This document shows, piece by piece, positions 3,956-18,500 of a stretch of DNA of 21,611 bases. How positions within the stretch are numbered: position 1 is the first letter of the stretch; each line of letters starts with the position of its first letter. The notes beneath the pieces were generated by a model, which saw only the letters and a list, made by a program, of their open reading frames with translations, was not told the DNA's origin and did no database searches. Position numbers and translations under genes: made by a program. The DNA comes from a virus: positions 1-21,611 of IMG/VR virus record IMGVR_UViG_3300017782_000268; one strand, given 5' to 3'.

Positions 3956-4151
3956 TATCGGCAAAGACTATAAGAATGACGCCATGCACTATGCCGTTGG
4001 GCAAGAAGTGTATGGTGGTCATACTATTTGCGATATTATAGAAGAAGAAGACAAGTTTTCTGTTTACATTAGAAAAGGTAAAGATGTTTTGCCTTGGAAA
4101 GACTTTAACAAAAACATGGCTGTATCTGTTGAATATAACCTGCAATACTAA
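3930..4151 (+). CDS. conserved-looking 73-residue phage protein, unknown
   Basis: This small protein has the sequence pattern of a single small beta domain: KISIGKDY at the start, HYAVGQEVYGG (residues 20-30), then FSVYIRKGKDVLPWKDFN and a final MAVSVEYNL strand. The pattern feels like a recurrent hypothetical protein found near terminase genes of marine phages, but I cannot give it a function. It starts inside the end of the coiled-coil gene (26-base overlap) and its TAA overlaps the next ATG by one base, so it is very likely translated by coupling from both sides. Its codon use (many ATA and AGA codons) fits the neighbours. Confidence 0.75.
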   Translation: MSKLIRKISIGKDYKNDAMHYAVGQEVYGGHTICDIIEEEDKFSVYIRKGKDVLPWKDFNKNMAVSVEYNLQY

Positions 4152-4732
4152 TGAAAAGCGTTTATAACTTTGTTGTAGAGCCAATAGGTGAAAGATATAA
4201 CAACGTTAAAAAAATCGGAAACTCTGAGTTAATAACAAACACTGAGGTTTTTAATCACCAACATGTTAACAGGCTAGCTAGAGTAGTGTCTACACCAACA
4301 AAGCTTAAAACAAATATTAAGCCAGGTGATACGGTACTAGTACATCACAATGTGTTTAGACGTTGGCACGACGTTAAAGGCAAAGAAAGAAACAGTAAAT
4401 CTTTTTTTAACGAAAACACATATATAATTTCAATAGATCAAATATTTTTATTTAAGTCAAAAGAAAAGTGGAAAGCACCTGACGGCTATTGCTTTGTCAA
4501 GCCTATAAAAGCTGTAGATCAATTTAATACTGAACAAGAAAGGCCTTTAATAGGTGTTGTTAAATATTCTGACAAAGTTGTTGAGGTAGGTGATTTAGTA
4601 GGTTTTAGACCTAGCAGCGAATACGAGTTTGTTGTTGAAGGCGAAAGACTGTATAGAGTATTATCAAATTTTATTACTATTAAGTATGAATATCAAGGAG
4701 ACGAAGAAGAGTATAATCCAAGCTGGGCATAG
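4151..4732 (+). CDS. double GroES-like barrel protein (putative second co-chaperonin)
   Basis: This 193-residue protein reads as two Cpn10-like units. Unit 1 (about residues 4-102) has FVVEPIGER, a loop GNSELITNTEV resembling a GroES mobile loop, RLARVVSTPT, then KPGDTVLVHHNVF and a closing YIISIDQIFLF. Unit 2 (about 112-182) has GYCFVKPIKA, PLIGVVKYSD, VEVGDLVGFRP and ERLYRVLSNFITIKYE. In the GroES of this window the matching segments are NNYIIVENIKA, ANVISTGN, EDKDVVYYD and DKLYQVIQSRDVVLI. The order and the spacing of strands fit the barrel, including the (V)GD turn. Unit 2 has a shortened mobile loop. It could cap a chaperonin or be a structural barrel that borrowed this fold. Overlaps both neighbouring genes. 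Fold confidence is moderate, function speculative. Confidence 0.65.
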   Translation: MKSVYNFVVEPIGERYNNVKKIGNSELITNTEVFNHQHVNRLARVVSTPTKLKTNIKPGDTVLVHHNVFRRWHDVKGKERNSKSFFNENTYIISIDQIFLFKSKEKWKAPDGYCFVKPIKAVDQFNTEQERPLIGVVKYSDKVVEVGDLVGFRPSSEYEFVVEGERLYRVLSNFITIKYEYQGDEEEYNPSWA

Positions 4733-7176: not shown

Positions 7177-9594
7177 ATGGCAGAGTCTGTTATAAAGAAT
7201 TATTTTCCAAGTCAAACCGTAAGTGATGCTGAAAAGCTTAGTTATGATTACGGTTTAAAAGTTGCAAAAGCTATAGAACAAGAGTGGTTTAATGGCGATA
7301 AAATAACTAGCAAGTATAGAAATAGTCTAAATGATTTTCACAGGCTAAGGCTTTATGCTAGAGGAGAGCAATCAATACAAAAGTATAAAGATGAGTTATC
7401 TATAAATGGAGACTTGTCTTACTTGAATTTAGACTGGAGCCCAGTTCCTATTATACCTAAGTTTGTTGATATTGTAGTAAATGGTATAGCTGAAAGAACT
7501 TACGATATAAAAGCTTACTCACAAGATCCTAATGGAGTTGCAAAAAGAACTAGATACATGGAGTCAATTATGGACGATATGGAGTTTAAAGATTTAAACG
7601 ATTTAGTTTCAACTCAATTTAACTTAGACTTAAGAGAAAGTGAAGAGCCTGTTTTACCTCAAACAATTGAAGAGCTACAGCTTCACATGCAGCTTAGCTA
7701 CAAGCAAGCAGTAGAGTTGGCTGAAGAACAAGCTCTAAATGTTTTACTAGATGGTAACAAATACGAATTAACTAAAAAAAGATTTTTCTACGATTTAACT
7801 GTTTTAGGTATTGGTGCTGTAAAAAATAACTTTTCAACATCTGAAGGAATAACAATAGATTACGTAGATCCAGCTGATCTTGTATACTCATATACAGATT
7901 CGCCTTATTTTGATGATATATATTATGTTGGAGAAGTTAAGTCAATACCAATAAACGAACTTGTAAAACAGTTTCCACATCTAGACCAGGAAGAAATAGA
8001 AGATATAGCTAAAAATTCTAGTTATTACAGAAGCAATAATCAAGGAAGATATAGCACAGACAAGGACGATAATAATAAGGTTCAAGTTTTGTATTTTAAC
8101 TTTAAAACTTTCATGAACGAAGTATATAAAGTTAAGCAGGTTGGATCTGGAGCTGAAAAAGCTATAGAGCGAGACGACACGTTTAATCCTCCTAATGAAG
8201 CTGAAGACTACTACAAGCTGCAGAGAGCTGTTGAAGTGTTATACGAAGGAGTTTTAATACTAGGGACTAATAAGCTCGTTAAGTGGGAAATGGCTAGAAA
8301 CATGATGAGGCCAAAAAGCGACTTTACTAAAGTTAAAATGAATTATTCTATTGTAGCGCCTAGAATGTACAATGGTAAAATAGAATCACTAGTTAAGCGT
8401 ATTACAGGTTTTGCTGATATGATTCAGCTTACTCATTTAAAATTACAACAAGTAATGTCAAGACTTGTTCCGGATGGCGTTTACTTAGATGCGGACGGTT
8501 TAGCTGAAATAGATTTAGGTAACGGTACAAATTATAATCCACAGGAAGCTTTAAATATGTTTTTCCAAACAGGTTCTGTTATTGGTAGATCATTTACTTC
8601 TGAAGGAGACGTGAATCCTGGCAAAGTGCCTATTCAAGAAATACAGTCAAGCTCTGGCGGGCAGAAAATGCAAAGTCTTATACAGACTTACAATTACTAT
8701 TTGCAGATGATACGCGATGTCACCGGTCTAAATGAAGCTAGAGATGGTAGCATGCCAGATAAAAACGCTTTAGTCGGTGTTCAAAAGCTTGCTGCAGCAA
8801 ATAGCAACACCGCAACAAGACATATATTACAAGCTGGTTTATTTTTAACAGCTGACACCTGCGAGTGTTTATCGCTTAGAATATCTGATGTATTAGAGTA
8901 CTCTCCAACAAAAGATGCTTTCGTGCAAGCTATTGGAGCACATAATGTAGCTACGTTAGAAGAACTTGAAGAACTGCATATGTATGATTTTGGTATATTT
9001 TTAGAGTTAATGCCAGATGAAGAAGAGAAAGCAAAGCTGGAAAACAATATTCAAATGGCGTTACAGCAACAGAATATAGAACTAGAGGACGCTATTGATC
9101 TTAGAGAAATAAGAAACATAAAACTTGCTAATCAACTTCTTAAAATACGTAGAAAGAAAAAGCAAGAAAGAGATAGAGCTTTGCAATTAGAAAACATACA
9201 GGCTCAAACTGAATCTAATGCTCAAGCGGCTCAACAAGCAGCTCAAGTAGAAGTGCAAAAAGAACAAGCACTTACTCAAAGCAAGATGCAACTAGAAAGT
9301 CACAAAGCACAACTTGAAGCTCAAAAAATGCAACAAGAAATAGAAGCTAAAAAACAATTAATGGAAGTTGAGTTTTCCTACAACATGCAGCTAAGAAAAG
9401 CTGACTCTGACAATTTGACTCAAAAGGAAAGAACAAAAGAAGATCGTAAGGACGAAAGAACTAAAATACAAGCTTCACAGCAGTCAGAGCTTATAGATCA
9501 AAGAAATAAAGGTAAAGCACCTAAAAACTTTGAGTCTGCAGGTAATGATAGTACTGGAAGTGGATTTGACTTAGAAGCGTTTACGCCTAGGTAG
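7177..9594 (+). CDS. portal protein
   Basis: This 805-residue protein should form the dodecameric ring through which DNA enters and leaves the head. The central part (about residues 230-600) has portal-like features: YVDPADLVYSY, LQQVMSRLVPDGVYLDADGL, then MIRDVTGLNEARDGSMPDKN and a helix-rich stem/wing region. From about residue 615 to 775 there is a very long Gln/Glu/Lys/Ala-rich coiled coil (barrel-type extension), as in podovirus portals with tall crowns or barrels. The last 20 residues contain FESAGNDS, which returns near the start of the next protein. ATG 7177 lies two bases after the terminase stop. Type confidence is high from order and motifs; the internal boundaries are estimates. 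Confidence 0.88.
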   Translation: MAESVIKNYFPSQTVSDAEKLSYDYGLKVAKAIEQEWFNGDKITSKYRNSLNDFHRLRLYARGEQSIQKYKDELSINGDLSYLNLDWSPVPIIPKFVDIVVNGIAERTYDIKAYSQDPNGVAKRTRYMESIMDDMEFKDLNDLVSTQFNLDLRESEEPVLPQTIEELQLHMQLSYKQAVELAEEQALNVLLDGNKYELTKKRFFYDLTVLGIGAVKNNFSTSEGITIDYVDPADLVYSYTDSPYFDDIYYVGEVKSIPINELVKQFPHLDQEEIEDIAKNSSYYRSNNQGRYSTDKDDNNKVQVLYFNFKTFMNEVYKVKQVGSGAEKAIERDDTFNPPNEAEDYYKLQRAVEVLYEGVLILGTNKLVKWEMARNMMRPKSDFTKVKMNYSIVAPRMYNGKIESLVKRITGFADMIQLTHLKLQQVMSRLVPDGVYLDADGLAEIDLGNGTNYNPQEALNMFFQTGSVIGRSFTSEGDVNPGKVPIQEIQSSSGGQKMQSLIQTYNYYLQMIRDVTGLNEARDGSMPDKNALVGVQKLAAANSNTATRHILQAGLFLTADTCECLSLRISDVLEYSPTKDAFVQAIGAHNVATLEELEELHMYDFGIFLELMPDEEEKAKLENNIQMALQQQNIELEDAIDLREIRNIKLANQLLKIRRKKKQERDRALQLENIQAQTESNAQAAQQAAQVEVQKEQALTQSKMQLESHKAQLEAQKMQQEIEAKKQLMEVEFSYNMQLRKADSDNLTQKERTKEDRKDERTKIQASQQSELIDQRNKGKAPKNFESAGNDSTGSGFDLEAFTPR

Positions 9595-9596
9595 AT

Positions 9597-9620
9597 TTAT
9601 TAATTATTTTATATTATATT
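9597..9620 (+). promoter_or_regulatory. TTATTAA leader before the scaffold gene
   Basis: TTATTAA (9597-9603) lies 17 bases before ATG 9621, followed by T-rich sequence with TTATATTATATT. A similar TTATATTATAT run precedes the gene at 12373. No Shine-Dalgarno. Confidence 0.25.
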
Positions 9621-10781
9621 ATGGAAGAAAATGAAAACGTAGTTGAAGAAACTACACAAGAAACAAACAAGGTTGATGAAAGTAAATTTGAAAGCGCTGG
9701 AGATGACAGCGTTGCTAAAGTTGACTTAAGTACACCTGTAGAAACTGAAACCGATGAAAAAGACCAAGCTGAAGATGATGGAGTTGACAACACAGGAGTG
9801 GTTGGAAGCGATGAAGCTACCGAGCCCGCACAGGAACAAAAAGAAGTACAGGAGGAAAACGAAACACAAGAACCTCCAGTATTAGAAGAAGTTGTTGACG
9901 AAGAGATTGAAGAAGTTGTTGAGCAGGTTGAAGAAGCTATAGCTCAATCAGAAGCCACTGGAAAACCATTACCAGAAAACGTCCAAAAGTTAGTTGACTT
10001 TATGGAGGAAACTGGTGGTGATATAAACGACTATGTTAGACTCAATAAAGATTACAGCCAAGCAGATGGCGATGAAGTTTTAAGAGAATACTATAGATTA
10101 ACTAAACCTCATCTTGACGTAGAAGAAAGATCGTTTTTATTAAATGAAAACTTTTCTTTTGATGAAGACGTAGATGATGAAGTAGACATAAGAAAAAAGA
10201 AAATCGCTTACAAAGAGCAAGTTGCCGAAGCGAAAGCCTATTTAGACGGGCAAAAGTCTAAGTATTACGATGAGATTAAAGCTGGTTCAAAGCTAACTGT
10301 AGAACAACAGAAAGCCGTGGATTTCTTTAATCGATATAACAAGGAATCAGAAGCTAGTGAAGCACTGCAATCTAAGTTTCTTAAAAAGACTGATTCAGTC
10401 TTTACCAATAAGTTCAAAGGTTTTGAATATAATGTTGGTGACAAGAAATATAGATTTAATGTAAAAGATGCTACAAAGGTTAAAGAGACCCAAAGCGACA
10501 TTAACAACTTTGTCAAAAAGTTTTTGAACGAAGACGGAACAATGTCAGATGCTAAAGGTTATCATAAGGCTTTGTACTCGGCAATGAACTCTGATGCTAT
10601 AGCTCAACATTTCTACGAGCAAGGTAAGGCTGACGCTTTAAAGAAAAGTGTTGCTAAGTCTAAAAACGTAGATATGACGCCACGTCAAAATCACAATGAG
10701 TTTGAGGCTGGTGGAATAAAAGTTAAGGTGTTAGGAAACGACTCTTCTGATTTTAAGTTTAAAATTAAAAACAGAAAATAA
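9621..10781 (+). CDS. acidic capsid scaffolding protein
   Basis: This 386-residue protein lies between portal and major capsid genes, the standard scaffold position. The first 120 residues are extremely rich in Glu, Asp, Gln and Val and probably disordered. A helical middle section follows, with LPENVQKLVDFMEETGG and INDYVRLNKDYS (about residues 117-150). The C-terminal part has helices with many Lys (DFFNRYNKES, KKFLNEDGTMSD) and ends basic, in DFKFKIKNRK. An acidic start, helical core and basic capsid-binding tail are typical of scaffolds, which direct shell assembly and then leave. The N-terminus holds KFESAGDDS (22-30), nearly the same as the end of the portal. No protease motif is visible. 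Confidence 0.8.
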   Translation: MEENENVVEETTQETNKVDESKFESAGDDSVAKVDLSTPVETETDEKDQAEDDGVDNTGVVGSDEATEPAQEQKEVQEENETQEPPVLEEVVDEEIEEVVEQVEEAIAQSEATGKPLPENVQKLVDFMEETGGDINDYVRLNKDYSQADGDEVLREYYRLTKPHLDVEERSFLLNENFSFDEDVDDEVDIRKKKIAYKEQVAEAKAYLDGQKSKYYDEIKAGSKLTVEQQKAVDFFNRYNKESEASEALQSKFLKKTDSVFTNKFKGFEYNVGDKKYRFNVKDATKVKETQSDINNFVKKFLNEDGTMSDAKGYHKALYSAMNSDAIAQHFYEQGKADALKKSVAKSKNVDMTPRQNHNEFEAGGIKVKVLGNDSSDFKFKIKNRK

Positions 10782-10809: not shown

Positions 10810-12309
10810 ATGGCAATTTCAAATCCAGGCGCTGGTCACTCCGGCGTCACAGGTAGCTTGAATAGTGTAGCAGCTTCACAAAAAGCGCTATTATCTTCAA
10901 ACTACATTGACTTTACTGCATCAGGCACAGAAGGCTGGGCTCAGCAGTATTTACCAGACCTAATGGAAAAAGAGGCTGAAGTATTCGGTAACAGAACTAT
11001 TTCAGGATTCTTATCTCAAGTAGGTGCTGAAGAAGCGATGACTTCTGACCAAGTTATTTGGTCTGAGCAAGGTCGTTTACACTTATCTTACACAGGTACT
11101 ATCAATAACACGACAGGTGTGTTTGCTTGTCTAAAAGATATTGACGGCAACGATTTAACTACTACTCACGGTGTTCGTATTAACGACATAGTTGTTGTAG
11201 CTACAGCTGAGGGTGTTATCAAATGTCTATGTACAGCTGTTTCAGGTGCTGATATTACATTGTTACCTTACGAGCAAGCTAACATCGATGATGCTAGTGC
11301 TTTCGGTACAGGTACTTCTAATGCTGCTACTATCTTAGTTATCGGTTCTGAATTTGGTAAAGGTAAGCAAGGGCAAGGCGCTACAACTGCAACTGTAAAT
11401 AACGGTTTCGGAGCTGTAGAACCTACTCACAAGTCTTTTACAAACAAGCCGATTATCTTAAAAGATTACTACGAAATCAACGGATCTGATGTATCTCAAA
11501 TTGGTTGGGTAGAAATCTCTGGAGAAGATGGACAGAACGGTTACTTATGGTATCTAAAAGCTGAAGGCGAAACTCGCTCTCGTTTTTCTGATTACCTAGA
11601 AATGAGCATGCTAGAAGCTGTTAAAGGTATTCCTGGAAACTCAACTGCAGAAGGTACTATCCGTACTGCTGGTGACACTTTCGGTACTGAAGGTTTATTC
11701 GCTGCTATTGAAGATAGAGGTAACATTACAACTGGTATTACTGGTGTTAACGCTGCTACTGATTTAGCTGAGTTTGACGCTATCTTAGCAGAGTTTGACA
11801 AGCAAGGTGCTATTGAAGAAAACATGATGTTCGTTAACCGTGCTTCTAGCTTGGCTATCGACGATATGCTAGCTTCTATGAACTCTTACGGTGCTGGTGG
11901 TACTTCTTACGGAGTATTTAACAACTCTGAAGATATGGCTTTAAACTTAGGTTTCTCTGGATTCCGTAGAGGTTCTTATGATTTCTACAAATCAGATATG
12001 AGATACTTAAATGACAAATCTACTCGTGGATCTATCAACGATAGAGCTGCAGGCTTTGGTATCCGTGGGGTTATTATCCCAGCTGGTGTGTCTACTGTAT
12101 ACGACCAAACATTAGGAAAAAATCTTAAACGTCCGTTCTTACACGTACGTTATAGAGCTTCTCAAATGGACGATAGAAGAATGAAAACTTGGATTACTGG
12201 ATCTATTGGCGGAAACGTTACTTCTGATCTTGATGCAATGCAAGTTAACTATTTATCTGAAAGATGTTTAGTTGTACAAGGTGCTAACAACTTCATGTTA
12301 ATGAAGTAA
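10810..12309 (+). CDS. major capsid protein
   Basis: This 499-residue protein is taken as the shell subunit, HK97 fold by class. Support: it follows the scaffold, has the expected size, and its C-terminal half has capsid-like motifs (IPAGVSTVYD, FLHVRYRASQMDDRR, MKTWITGSIGG, then a final LSERCLVVQGANNFML). A N-terminal arm with ASQKALLSSNY and EGWAQQYLPDLM precedes the core. Codon use differs from the rest of the window: isoleucine is ATT or ATC with a single ATA by my count, and arginine is often CGT rather than AGA. This is what selection for high expression produces. A strong terminator follows within 12 bases. No sign of a separate maturation cleavage was identified. Confidence 0.88.
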   Translation: MAISNPGAGHSGVTGSLNSVAASQKALLSSNYIDFTASGTEGWAQQYLPDLMEKEAEVFGNRTISGFLSQVGAEEAMTSDQVIWSEQGRLHLSYTGTINNTTGVFACLKDIDGNDLTTTHGVRINDIVVVATAEGVIKCLCTAVSGADITLLPYEQANIDDASAFGTGTSNAATILVIGSEFGKGKQGQGATTATVNNGFGAVEPTHKSFTNKPIILKDYYEINGSDVSQIGWVEISGEDGQNGYLWYLKAEGETRSRFSDYLEMSMLEAVKGIPGNSTAEGTIRTAGDTFGTEGLFAAIEDRGNITTGITGVNAATDLAEFDAILAEFDKQGAIEENMMFVNRASSLAIDDMLASMNSYGAGGTSYGVFNNSEDMALNLGFSGFRRGSYDFYKSDMRYLNDKSTRGSINDRAAGFGIRGVIIPAGVSTVYDQTLGKNLKRPFLHVRYRASQMDDRRMKTWITGSIGGNVTSDLDAMQVNYLSERCLVVQGANNFMLMK

Positions 12310-15572: not shown

Positions 15573-18500
15573 ATGGCGGAAATCAAAAACACTTTTAGTC
15601 AAGGTAAAATGAACAAAGACCTTGACGAAAGACTTATACCTAATGGACAATATAGAGACGCTTTAAACGTTGAAATAACTTCTGATGGTGAGTCTGCAGA
15701 GACAGGTAGCGCTGGTACAATATCTAATATAAAAGGTAATATACCTTTAGAAAACGTTGTACCAAGTGATAAATGTGTTTGCGTAGGAAGTGTTGCAGAT
15801 GAAAAAAATAATAAGCTATATTGGTTTGTTAAGTGTGAAGGATTTCCGCAGTCTGGAGACACAGCGTTTCCTAATAGAGATGCTATAATAGAGTACGATA
15901 CCGTATCAAAAGAATCTACTTTCCTTATTACTGATCTCCGTAGTAAGTTTACTAACTCTGCTGGAAGCACAGTAAAGCCTATATTAAATTTTTCTGGCAA
16001 GAAAATAACTTCAATAAATATAATAGATCAGTATTTAATATGGTCTGATGGAGAGACAGAGCCTAAAAAAATAAATATTGAAAAAGCTAAAGAAGCTACA
16101 ATAAAACAAAACAACGGCACAAATGGAAGAGGATCTTTAAACCATCACTCTTATCTATATGTTAATGGTGTTAACACTGTTCAGTACTTACAAGAAGAAA
16201 ATATAACTGTAATAAAGAAAAAGCCTTTAATGGCTCCTAGATATAGTGTTGTTAGTGCTAAGAATTCTGAATTTGATCCTAAATTAAATCCTACGCCTCT
16301 TAAAAAAGCTATATTTGAAAAAATATTCCCTAGATTTTGTTTGAGATATAAATACCAAGATGGTGAGTATTCTGCTTTTGGACCTTTTACTAATGTTATA
16401 TTTAACCCTGAGTTTGTAGGTGAATATTCTGTACTAAACGCTTTTACAGCAAAAGAGCCTTATAACAAGGCTATGGTTAACGCTATAAGAACAATAAATT
16501 TTTATGGTTTAGTTACTCCAGATATGCCTAAAGACGTTGTGCAGATAGACATTTTGTATAAGCAAGAAAACTCTACTGTAATTCACAATGTAGGTAGCAT
16601 TAAAAATACAGATCCAGAATGGTTTGAAGATGGTAACTGGTTTAAACAACAAGGATTAGCAGACTACGATAGTTATAACCCTACTACTAAAGGCGTTTTT
16701 ATTGTAGACACAGAAAACATACACGCCGCTTTACCTGAGAATCAATTTTTAAGAGTATGGGATGCTGTGCCAAGAAAAGCACAAGCTCAAGAAGTAACTG
16801 GAAATAGATTAGTTTTTGCCAACTATACTGAGGGTTACGATATGGTTGTGGACAACTCTGACTTTAAACCTAAAGTTTTAGGAGACTTTGAGCCAAGGCA
16901 AATTGATGTTGATAGTATTTTTAGAGGTGAAGGCGCCTTTGGATACTCGCTAAACATGTCGCAGAACTTAACCGGTAGATTTGAAAACGCTACATCAATA
17001 TCTTCAACTAGGGATAGAGGTAATATTTATTCGTACGTAGCCGCTCCAGTAGCAGATCCATCTCGACCATTAGCATATGCTTATACTGGCTACAGAGGAG
17101 CAGGATTGCCTACTATAAAATCTCAACGAGACTACCAATTAGGTGTTGTCTTTGGAGATGAATACGGTAGAGAAACACCTGTATTTACTTCCGATCTAGC
17201 TACAGTAAAAATTCCTTGGGAAGGAGCTTACGGACTATCTGCTAGCACGTCATTATCTATAGCTGCATCACTAGGCAACACCCCGCCTAGTTGGGCTAAG
17301 TATTACAAGTTTTACATAAAACAATCTGCTGGAGAGTATTATAATATAGCGATGGATAAAGTGTATAGACCAGCAACTTCTTCTCCAGAGTTTGATAACG
17401 ACTTAAATCACGTTTGGGTTTCTTTTGCTTCTTCTGATAGAGATAAAATAGATACGGGTGAATATATAACAATTAAAAAGATTATAAACGATTATGCTAC
17501 TCAAATACAAAAAGAAAATAAATATAAAGTACTAGACATTTCAAACGAAATGCCAGACTCTATAGCTTTTGAGTATTATAATTTAGGAACTAGAAGTAAT
17601 ATAAATAGTGCTTTAACTGATGAAAATATAACAGATGCAATTCCTATATTTACACAAGATCCTACGTCAAATGAAGAAAATAGAATAGACAGAATAACTA
17701 ACACTATTGAGATTTCAAAAACAAACTGGCTAGCTGGAAGTGGAGCTGCTTTAACTAAAGAAGATATTGACGGTTACACAGAAAGAGATGGTGGATTATA
17801 TATTTCTTGGAGAAGATCTACACAGTCTAGTAGAGTTTTTTCCAAAAGATATAAGGTAACTTCTGTAACTTTTCAAAGTAATAAATACATATTAAAACTT
17901 GCTGAATTTATACAAGAGCAAGATGCTAAGTTAGCTGCTAATAGTTCTGATTTATCTACTACTTCAGTAGGTTTAGGTGGTACTGTAACGGCTGACACTT
18001 TAACTTTTCAAATAGAAAGAAAAGAAAAGAAAACTAAAGAGGCTTTTGATGGCAGGTTTTTTGTTAAGATAGCCGCAGATTATATATTAGAAGAATACTT
18101 GCTTAGCGAGTTTAAAGAAGAGTTTACTGATTTTTATGTTAACGGAGTGCAAAAGTTGTTTTATTTAGCAGATGGCATAACTACAGGTTTTGACGCCTCG
18201 TCTGCTATAGTTAACTCTGAAAACTCAGCTGAAATACAGTCTTATCAAGATGACAGTGATGTTACTTCTCCTAGCGATATTCATTCTGGAGGTTCTTTAA
18301 CAGATCTTCAATCAGAGTGGCAAGCTTTAATGGACGATGATAACTTTGGTGTAAGAACAAGTCCTACAAGCAATAGCTCTGCTGGTAACGGTGGGTTTTT
18401 TATAGATGCAATGTATTTTGCCGCAATAAACAGTGATTCTGCAAATTCGTATGCTAAGTACGCTGGCCAAGGTTGGACTGGTAACTTATCTGTTGAATAT

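Follow-up and report, generated by a model that had tools for sequence, protein, structure and literature searches.

Genes and features of the head module

The virus record analyzed here (21,611 bases, hereafter the window) comprises the head module of a podophage in which a GroES-like gene is followed by the genes for the terminase, the portal, a probable scaffold protein and a probable capsid protein and, further downstream, by tail genes (Table 1). We infer the capsid role of the gene that follows the scaffold from gene order. The identification of the scaffold itself is probable and derives from the location of its gene between the portal and major capsid genes, in the window as well as in related phages, and from the shape of the protein, which, in an AlphaFold2 model and in the alignment, combines an acidic, disordered head with a mostly helical body and a basic C-terminal end. 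Searches of Pfam, PHROGs, and the PDB, the latter by sequence and by fold of the model, yielded no significant match for this protein; scaffolds evolve fast, so that the missing matches are a weak argument against the scaffold role.

Table 1. Features of the portal-scaffold-capsid region, in window coordinates
Feature	Coordinates	Strand	Basis or remark
Portal protein, 805 aa	7177..9594	+	PHROG 6547 portal, E 1.8e-154
Long C-terminal helix, portal residues 648-778	9118..9510	+	AlphaFold2 model
Portal C-terminal tail FESAGNDSTGSGFDLEAFTPR	9529..9591	+	Conserved family-wide, disordered
Probable scaffold protein, 386 aa	9621..10781	+	Between portal and major capsid gene; shape
Scaffold FESAGDDS, residues 23-30	9687..9710	+	Limited to one clade, resembles portal tail
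Scaffold V-x-K-V-D-L-S-x-P, residues 31-39	9711..9737	+	Constrained element of scaffold head
Scaffold helical body, residues 91-348	9891..10664	+	AlphaFold2 model
Scaffold basic C-terminus DFKFKIKNRK, candidate coat-binding end	10749..10778	+	Basic ends in most relatives; analogy with P22 hook
Probable major capsid protein	10810..12309	+	PHROG 13704 virion structural protein, E 9e-101

The same head module encodes two co-chaperonins of the GroES type, namely, an 86-aa Cpn10 (positions 125-385; E 4e-8 to Pfam PF00166) and a GroES-like protein of double length (193 aa; 4151-4732; PHROG 13932, E 9e-21), the gene for which adjoins the terminase gene in relatives as well. Tandem genes at 458-853 and 883-1257 encode small paralogous proteins that have in common both the YFMEETDG motif and the overall layout, with no match in Pfam or PHROG.

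The preliminary description of this DNA called attention to a short peptide common to the portal and the scaffold and suggested that it could be a docking tag for a common partner or else a cleavage or delivery signal. Both copies are indeed present: the portal ORF ends with KNFESAGNDSTGSGFDLEAFTPR directly before the stop codon, with FESAGNDS at residues 785-792 (9529-9552), and the head of the scaffold ORF contains KFESAGDDSVAKVDLSTP, which includes FESAGDDS. As also stated there, it is the peptides that are alike whereas the codons differ, with E-S-A encoded by GAG TCT GCA in the portal and by GAA AGC GCT in the scaffold.

We estimated the odds of such a match by randomizing residue order within 60-residue blocks of every window protein, so that local composition was maintained, in 400 trials, with one misplaced overlapping ORF and one paralogue removed from the gene set. 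Octamers with at least 7 of 8 identical residues appeared between some two window genes in 119 of the 400 shuffles (30%), and the window contains a second real pair of this kind, EGIEDKDV and EGILDKDV, in two unrelated small proteins; thus, as a match found by eye, the likeness is unremarkable. For the portal and the scaffold as a specific gene pair, an octamer match is uncommon (3 of 400 shuffles, <1%), which may indicate a weak functional link. The eighth match is confined to the window and its closest relatives: S stands at this position in just 4 of the 64 distinct tails compared in the window's clade, the majority form being FES[AS]GNDI.

A conserved C-terminal peptide of the portal

Relatives were gathered using the scaffold of the window and four other portals as queries, and named phages were added to this set. 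An alignment of 55 diverse portals, with 41-93% identity to the window portal, shows F785 as an invariant column and E786 and S787 at a conservation of 90% or more; of 276 distinct portals, 266 contain FES in their final 32 residues. The portal end roughly follows the consensus F-E-S-x(1-3)-[ND]-D-x-x-G-[FI]-[DG]-L-x-x-F-x-P-[RK]-stop, with the tails of the window's clade and its sister clade, FES[ASK]GND, being one residue longer than those of distant clades (FESNEDSLDGFDLAEFEPR and similar). Among the matches listed, the tail is kept in 80 of 81 portals of the window's clade, and the single exception is a broken reading frame. Some divergent portals (L129/L138/L144 and L142/L143) have other ends (NPIDFDGADSIGLDL, AVDFQNESSNEMVSRILGS) in which the F is retained, as it is in the portal end of phi18:3, IDFSKKFSLESLIG.

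We built AlphaFold2 monomer models of the portal, from the 55-sequence alignment, and of the scaffold, both of moderate confidence (mean pLDDT values of 72 and 69). In the portal model, a 131-residue helix (648-778) is followed by a disordered tail, with pLDDT below 50 at residues 783-805. The fold is of the P22/crAss type, the top Foldseek matches being the portals of phicrAss001, Pan3, and P22; a sequence search of the PDB with the portal profile gave no match. The extended C-terminal helix typical of such portals is represented in the monomer model by helix 648-778, which would be expected to form the barrel. The long C-terminal helical barrel of the phicrAss001 portal is directed towards the capsid core (PMC10172136), and by analogy, the portal tail of the window probably lies at the barrel's inner end.

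The tail is flexible and would hang there and dock on a partner in the head interior, such as the scaffold body, the coat protein or an internal protein, during head assembly or during storage of the genome or proteins. Disordered tails are rarely so constant without a partner. At the sequence level, conservation of the portal tail is well supported across this large group of flavobacterial-type podophages, and we consider the tail a candidate docking element, most likely for such an interior partner.

Variation in the scaffold head

The set of relatives in the window's clade, gathered by scaffold similarity, includes at least 80 loci. Among the matches listed, 62 of the 72 distinct scaffold heads contain a loose form similar to F-x-[ST]-x-x-[DN]-D, 29 contain the strict form FESAG[DN][DN], and 10 contain nothing similar to FESAGDDS. 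In other clades, the F-motif is found in none of the 230 portal-adjacent downstream ORFs of at least 300 aa, a few of which may be non-scaffolds. When traced along a phylogeny of the scaffold bodies, the scaffold motif calls for about 7 parsimony changes inside the window's clade, and the well-supported branches alone force at least 3 changes over the whole tree. Hence, the expectation that relatives would keep the motif in both proteins was borne out for the portal and failed for the scaffold, in which the motif is missing elsewhere and was lost several times within the clade.

The FESAGDDS stretch is about as variable as its disordered neighbors, with a mean column entropy, among the clade heads listed, of 1.22 compared with 1.31 for residues 1-22 and 1.33 for residues 39-115; the values for residues 31-38 (V-x-K-V-D-L-S-x) and for the folded body, among the clade scaffolds listed, are 0.72 and 0.68, respectively. 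The alignments show that constraint in the scaffold head resides in the adjoining K-[VI]-[DN]-L-x-x-P (K 96%, L 99%, and P 93% in the window's clade, among the matches listed), and the sister clades keep K-[IV]-[DN]-L but not FESAGDD.

Several other features of the scaffold N-termini emerged from these comparisons. The K-V-D-L-x-x-P element is doubled in several heads (L039, L061, L065, L011), as TKVE...TKVNL or TKVDL...TKVDL, and in heads without the F, such as L039, L061, and L065, a pair of K-V-[DE]-like repeats is often found in its place. In the Manatee-like clade and the sister clades (L228 and L356 among others), scaffolds start with a different conserved block, M-x-[IFLW]-K-[VI]-[RK]...E-x-K-S-x-Q-E-x-E-x-x-L-L, that was lost from the window's clade.

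The two stretches are adjacent, only 158 bases apart, and the 3' end of the portal gene could have been copied into the 5' end of the scaffold gene, by tandem duplication or gene conversion, with subsequent decay. However, codon identity at the shared residues is 0.42, below the 0.52 expected from codon usage (26 pairs), which gives no sign of a recent duplication, and sister-clade scaffolds show PE[SA]AG..DV.K[IV][DN]L in the same region (in an alignment with a small gap), so that the segment may in part have a scaffold ancestry of its own. An ancient copy of the portal end may underlie the likeness; overall, we regard copying as very unlikely.

If one pocket read both copies, the same residues would be expected to be held in the two proteins, but the constraint differs. 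In the clade, all 64 distinct portal tails have E and 63 have N, with the next residue after FES split between A (31) and S (31); in the scaffold, E is present in 37 of 61 (K, D, N, Q or M in the rest), A in 57, and D in 58. Thus, the portal fixes E and N, and the scaffold varies E and fixes D. A third protein with the motif, which the preliminary description proposed to look for, did not turn up: a degenerate DNA pattern run over 12 contigs hit the portal and the scaffold only, and protein profiles of the portal tail run over 21 records, most of these fragments, detected no third gene. In this profile scan, the scaffold head ranked first among non-portal matches in 6 of the 8 window-clade records, which share ancestry, and never did so in sister or distant records.

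These observations bear on the main rival to coincidence, namely, that the peptide arose a second time, in the scaffold head of this clade, and mimics the portal tail by binding where the tail binds on an interior partner (coat, portal or scaffold body), which would help the portal and the scaffold co-assemble or exchange. The portal and the scaffold would both be expected within the procapsid, and the rarity of the match in shuffles of this gene pair and the rank of the scaffold head in the profile scan are as mimicry would predict; furthermore, the scaffold form resembles FES[AS]G[ND]D, found in portals of the same clade and the sister clade, rather than FES-[NT]ED of distant portals. Yet, the scaffold motif was lost several times while the portal tail was retained, the fixed residues are not alike in the two copies, the scaffold lacks the FDLxxFxP half of the portal tail, and no co-variation was observed between the scaffold motif and the A/S state of the portal, with too few independent pairs for this comparison to carry much weight. 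On balance, we consider such mimicry unlikely. About as unlikely is the fuller scenario in which the portal peptide is a docking signal of the procapsid and a mimic that evolved independently in the scaffold of one marine clade competes for, or shares, its partner.

The other function proposed at the outset, a common cleavage or delivery signal, would have a phage protease or an ejection route read FESAG in both proteins. The terminal, disordered location of the peptide in both AlphaFold2 models would suit such a signal. Nevertheless, profile searches of 19 window proteins against Pfam and PHROGs (a set that excludes the giant tail ORF after position 15573 and the genome outside the window) brought up no peptidase, most scaffolds of the family, including those of other clades, lack the site, and no cargo-like protein bearing the motif was found in the 12-contig scan or with the 21-record profiles. 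This proposal was not upheld, and of all the explanations considered, it appears the least probable, being very unlikely by our estimate.

Interpretation and comparison with known systems

The explanation we favor, with a probability of about 0.6, is that the likeness is a coincidence or a mild, cheap convergence of two separate short elements, given that the scaffold copy is restricted to one clade, was repeatedly lost, and drifts differently from the portal copy. In the window's clade, the scaffold residues that precede K-[VI]-[DN]-L-x-x-P drift around F-x-S-A-x-D-D, and under this explanation, the resemblance would arise within an acidic, disordered segment that is not read by the partner of the portal tail. 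Several findings point the other way, apart from the shuffling and profile results described above. Within the clade, among the matches listed, conservation of the scaffold F, S, A, and D-D ranges from 81 to 89%, which exceeds that of a freely drifting segment, and the likeness weakly extends beyond the octamer, with FDL in the portal and VDL in the scaffold.

As judged from sequence comparison, then, a tag common to the portal and the scaffold is not supported, given the difference in constraint and the lack of a third carrier; what survives of the docking proposal is a peptide of the portal alone, made plausible by its conservation. The likeness in the scaffold probably is non-functional, but the check on it exposed a C-terminal portal peptide that is kept down to about 41% portal identity and could serve as a starting point for identifying the binding partner at the inner tip of the portal barrel. 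The phages concerned are abundant, little-studied and of the flavobacterial type, and include cultured ones (elemo phages, Panino).

We found no description of a peptide shared by portal and scaffold in the open-access literature. The best fold match to the window portal is the phicrAss001 portal gp20 (PDB 7qoi, 7qog; E 3e-22), with weak profile similarity (E 7e-5, probability 63%) and about 15% identity; the deposited end of gp20, ...KKSSTTNK, lacks the FES tail of the window portal. The gene preceding the capsid gene of crAss001, gp31, was considered as a scaffold homologue and rejected for lack of profile similarity.

Elemovirus, Cellulophaga phi38:1 (Pervagoviridae), Maribacter phage Panino, and ctfjg026 share the terminase-portal-scaffold-capsid order of the window. 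The portal tails in this group are FESNEDSLDGFSLSEFEPR, FESENDNLSKTDFAQFEPK, and FESTEDSLDGFDLGQFGPR, with a diverged FRSGNTS in phi38:1, and the scaffold heads (MFKMKLEGSE, MEIKVREV etc.), unlike that of the window, are without FESAG.

In the parts of the P22 reports on which we draw (PMC12005531, PMC5290284), a shared portal/scaffold peptide such as that of the window is not described; the scaffold touches the wing and the crown of the portal, whose barrel is unfolded at the procapsid stage. Within the same parts of these reports, the P22 portal gp1 has a C-terminal helical barrel, as would the window portal, and the P22 scaffold gp8 consists of an unresolved N-terminal loop, a helical body, and a coat-binding C-terminal hook, an organization similar to that predicted for the window scaffold. 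By analogy with this hook, as it appears in the portion of PMC12005531 used here, the basic C-terminus of the window scaffold is a candidate coat-binding end.
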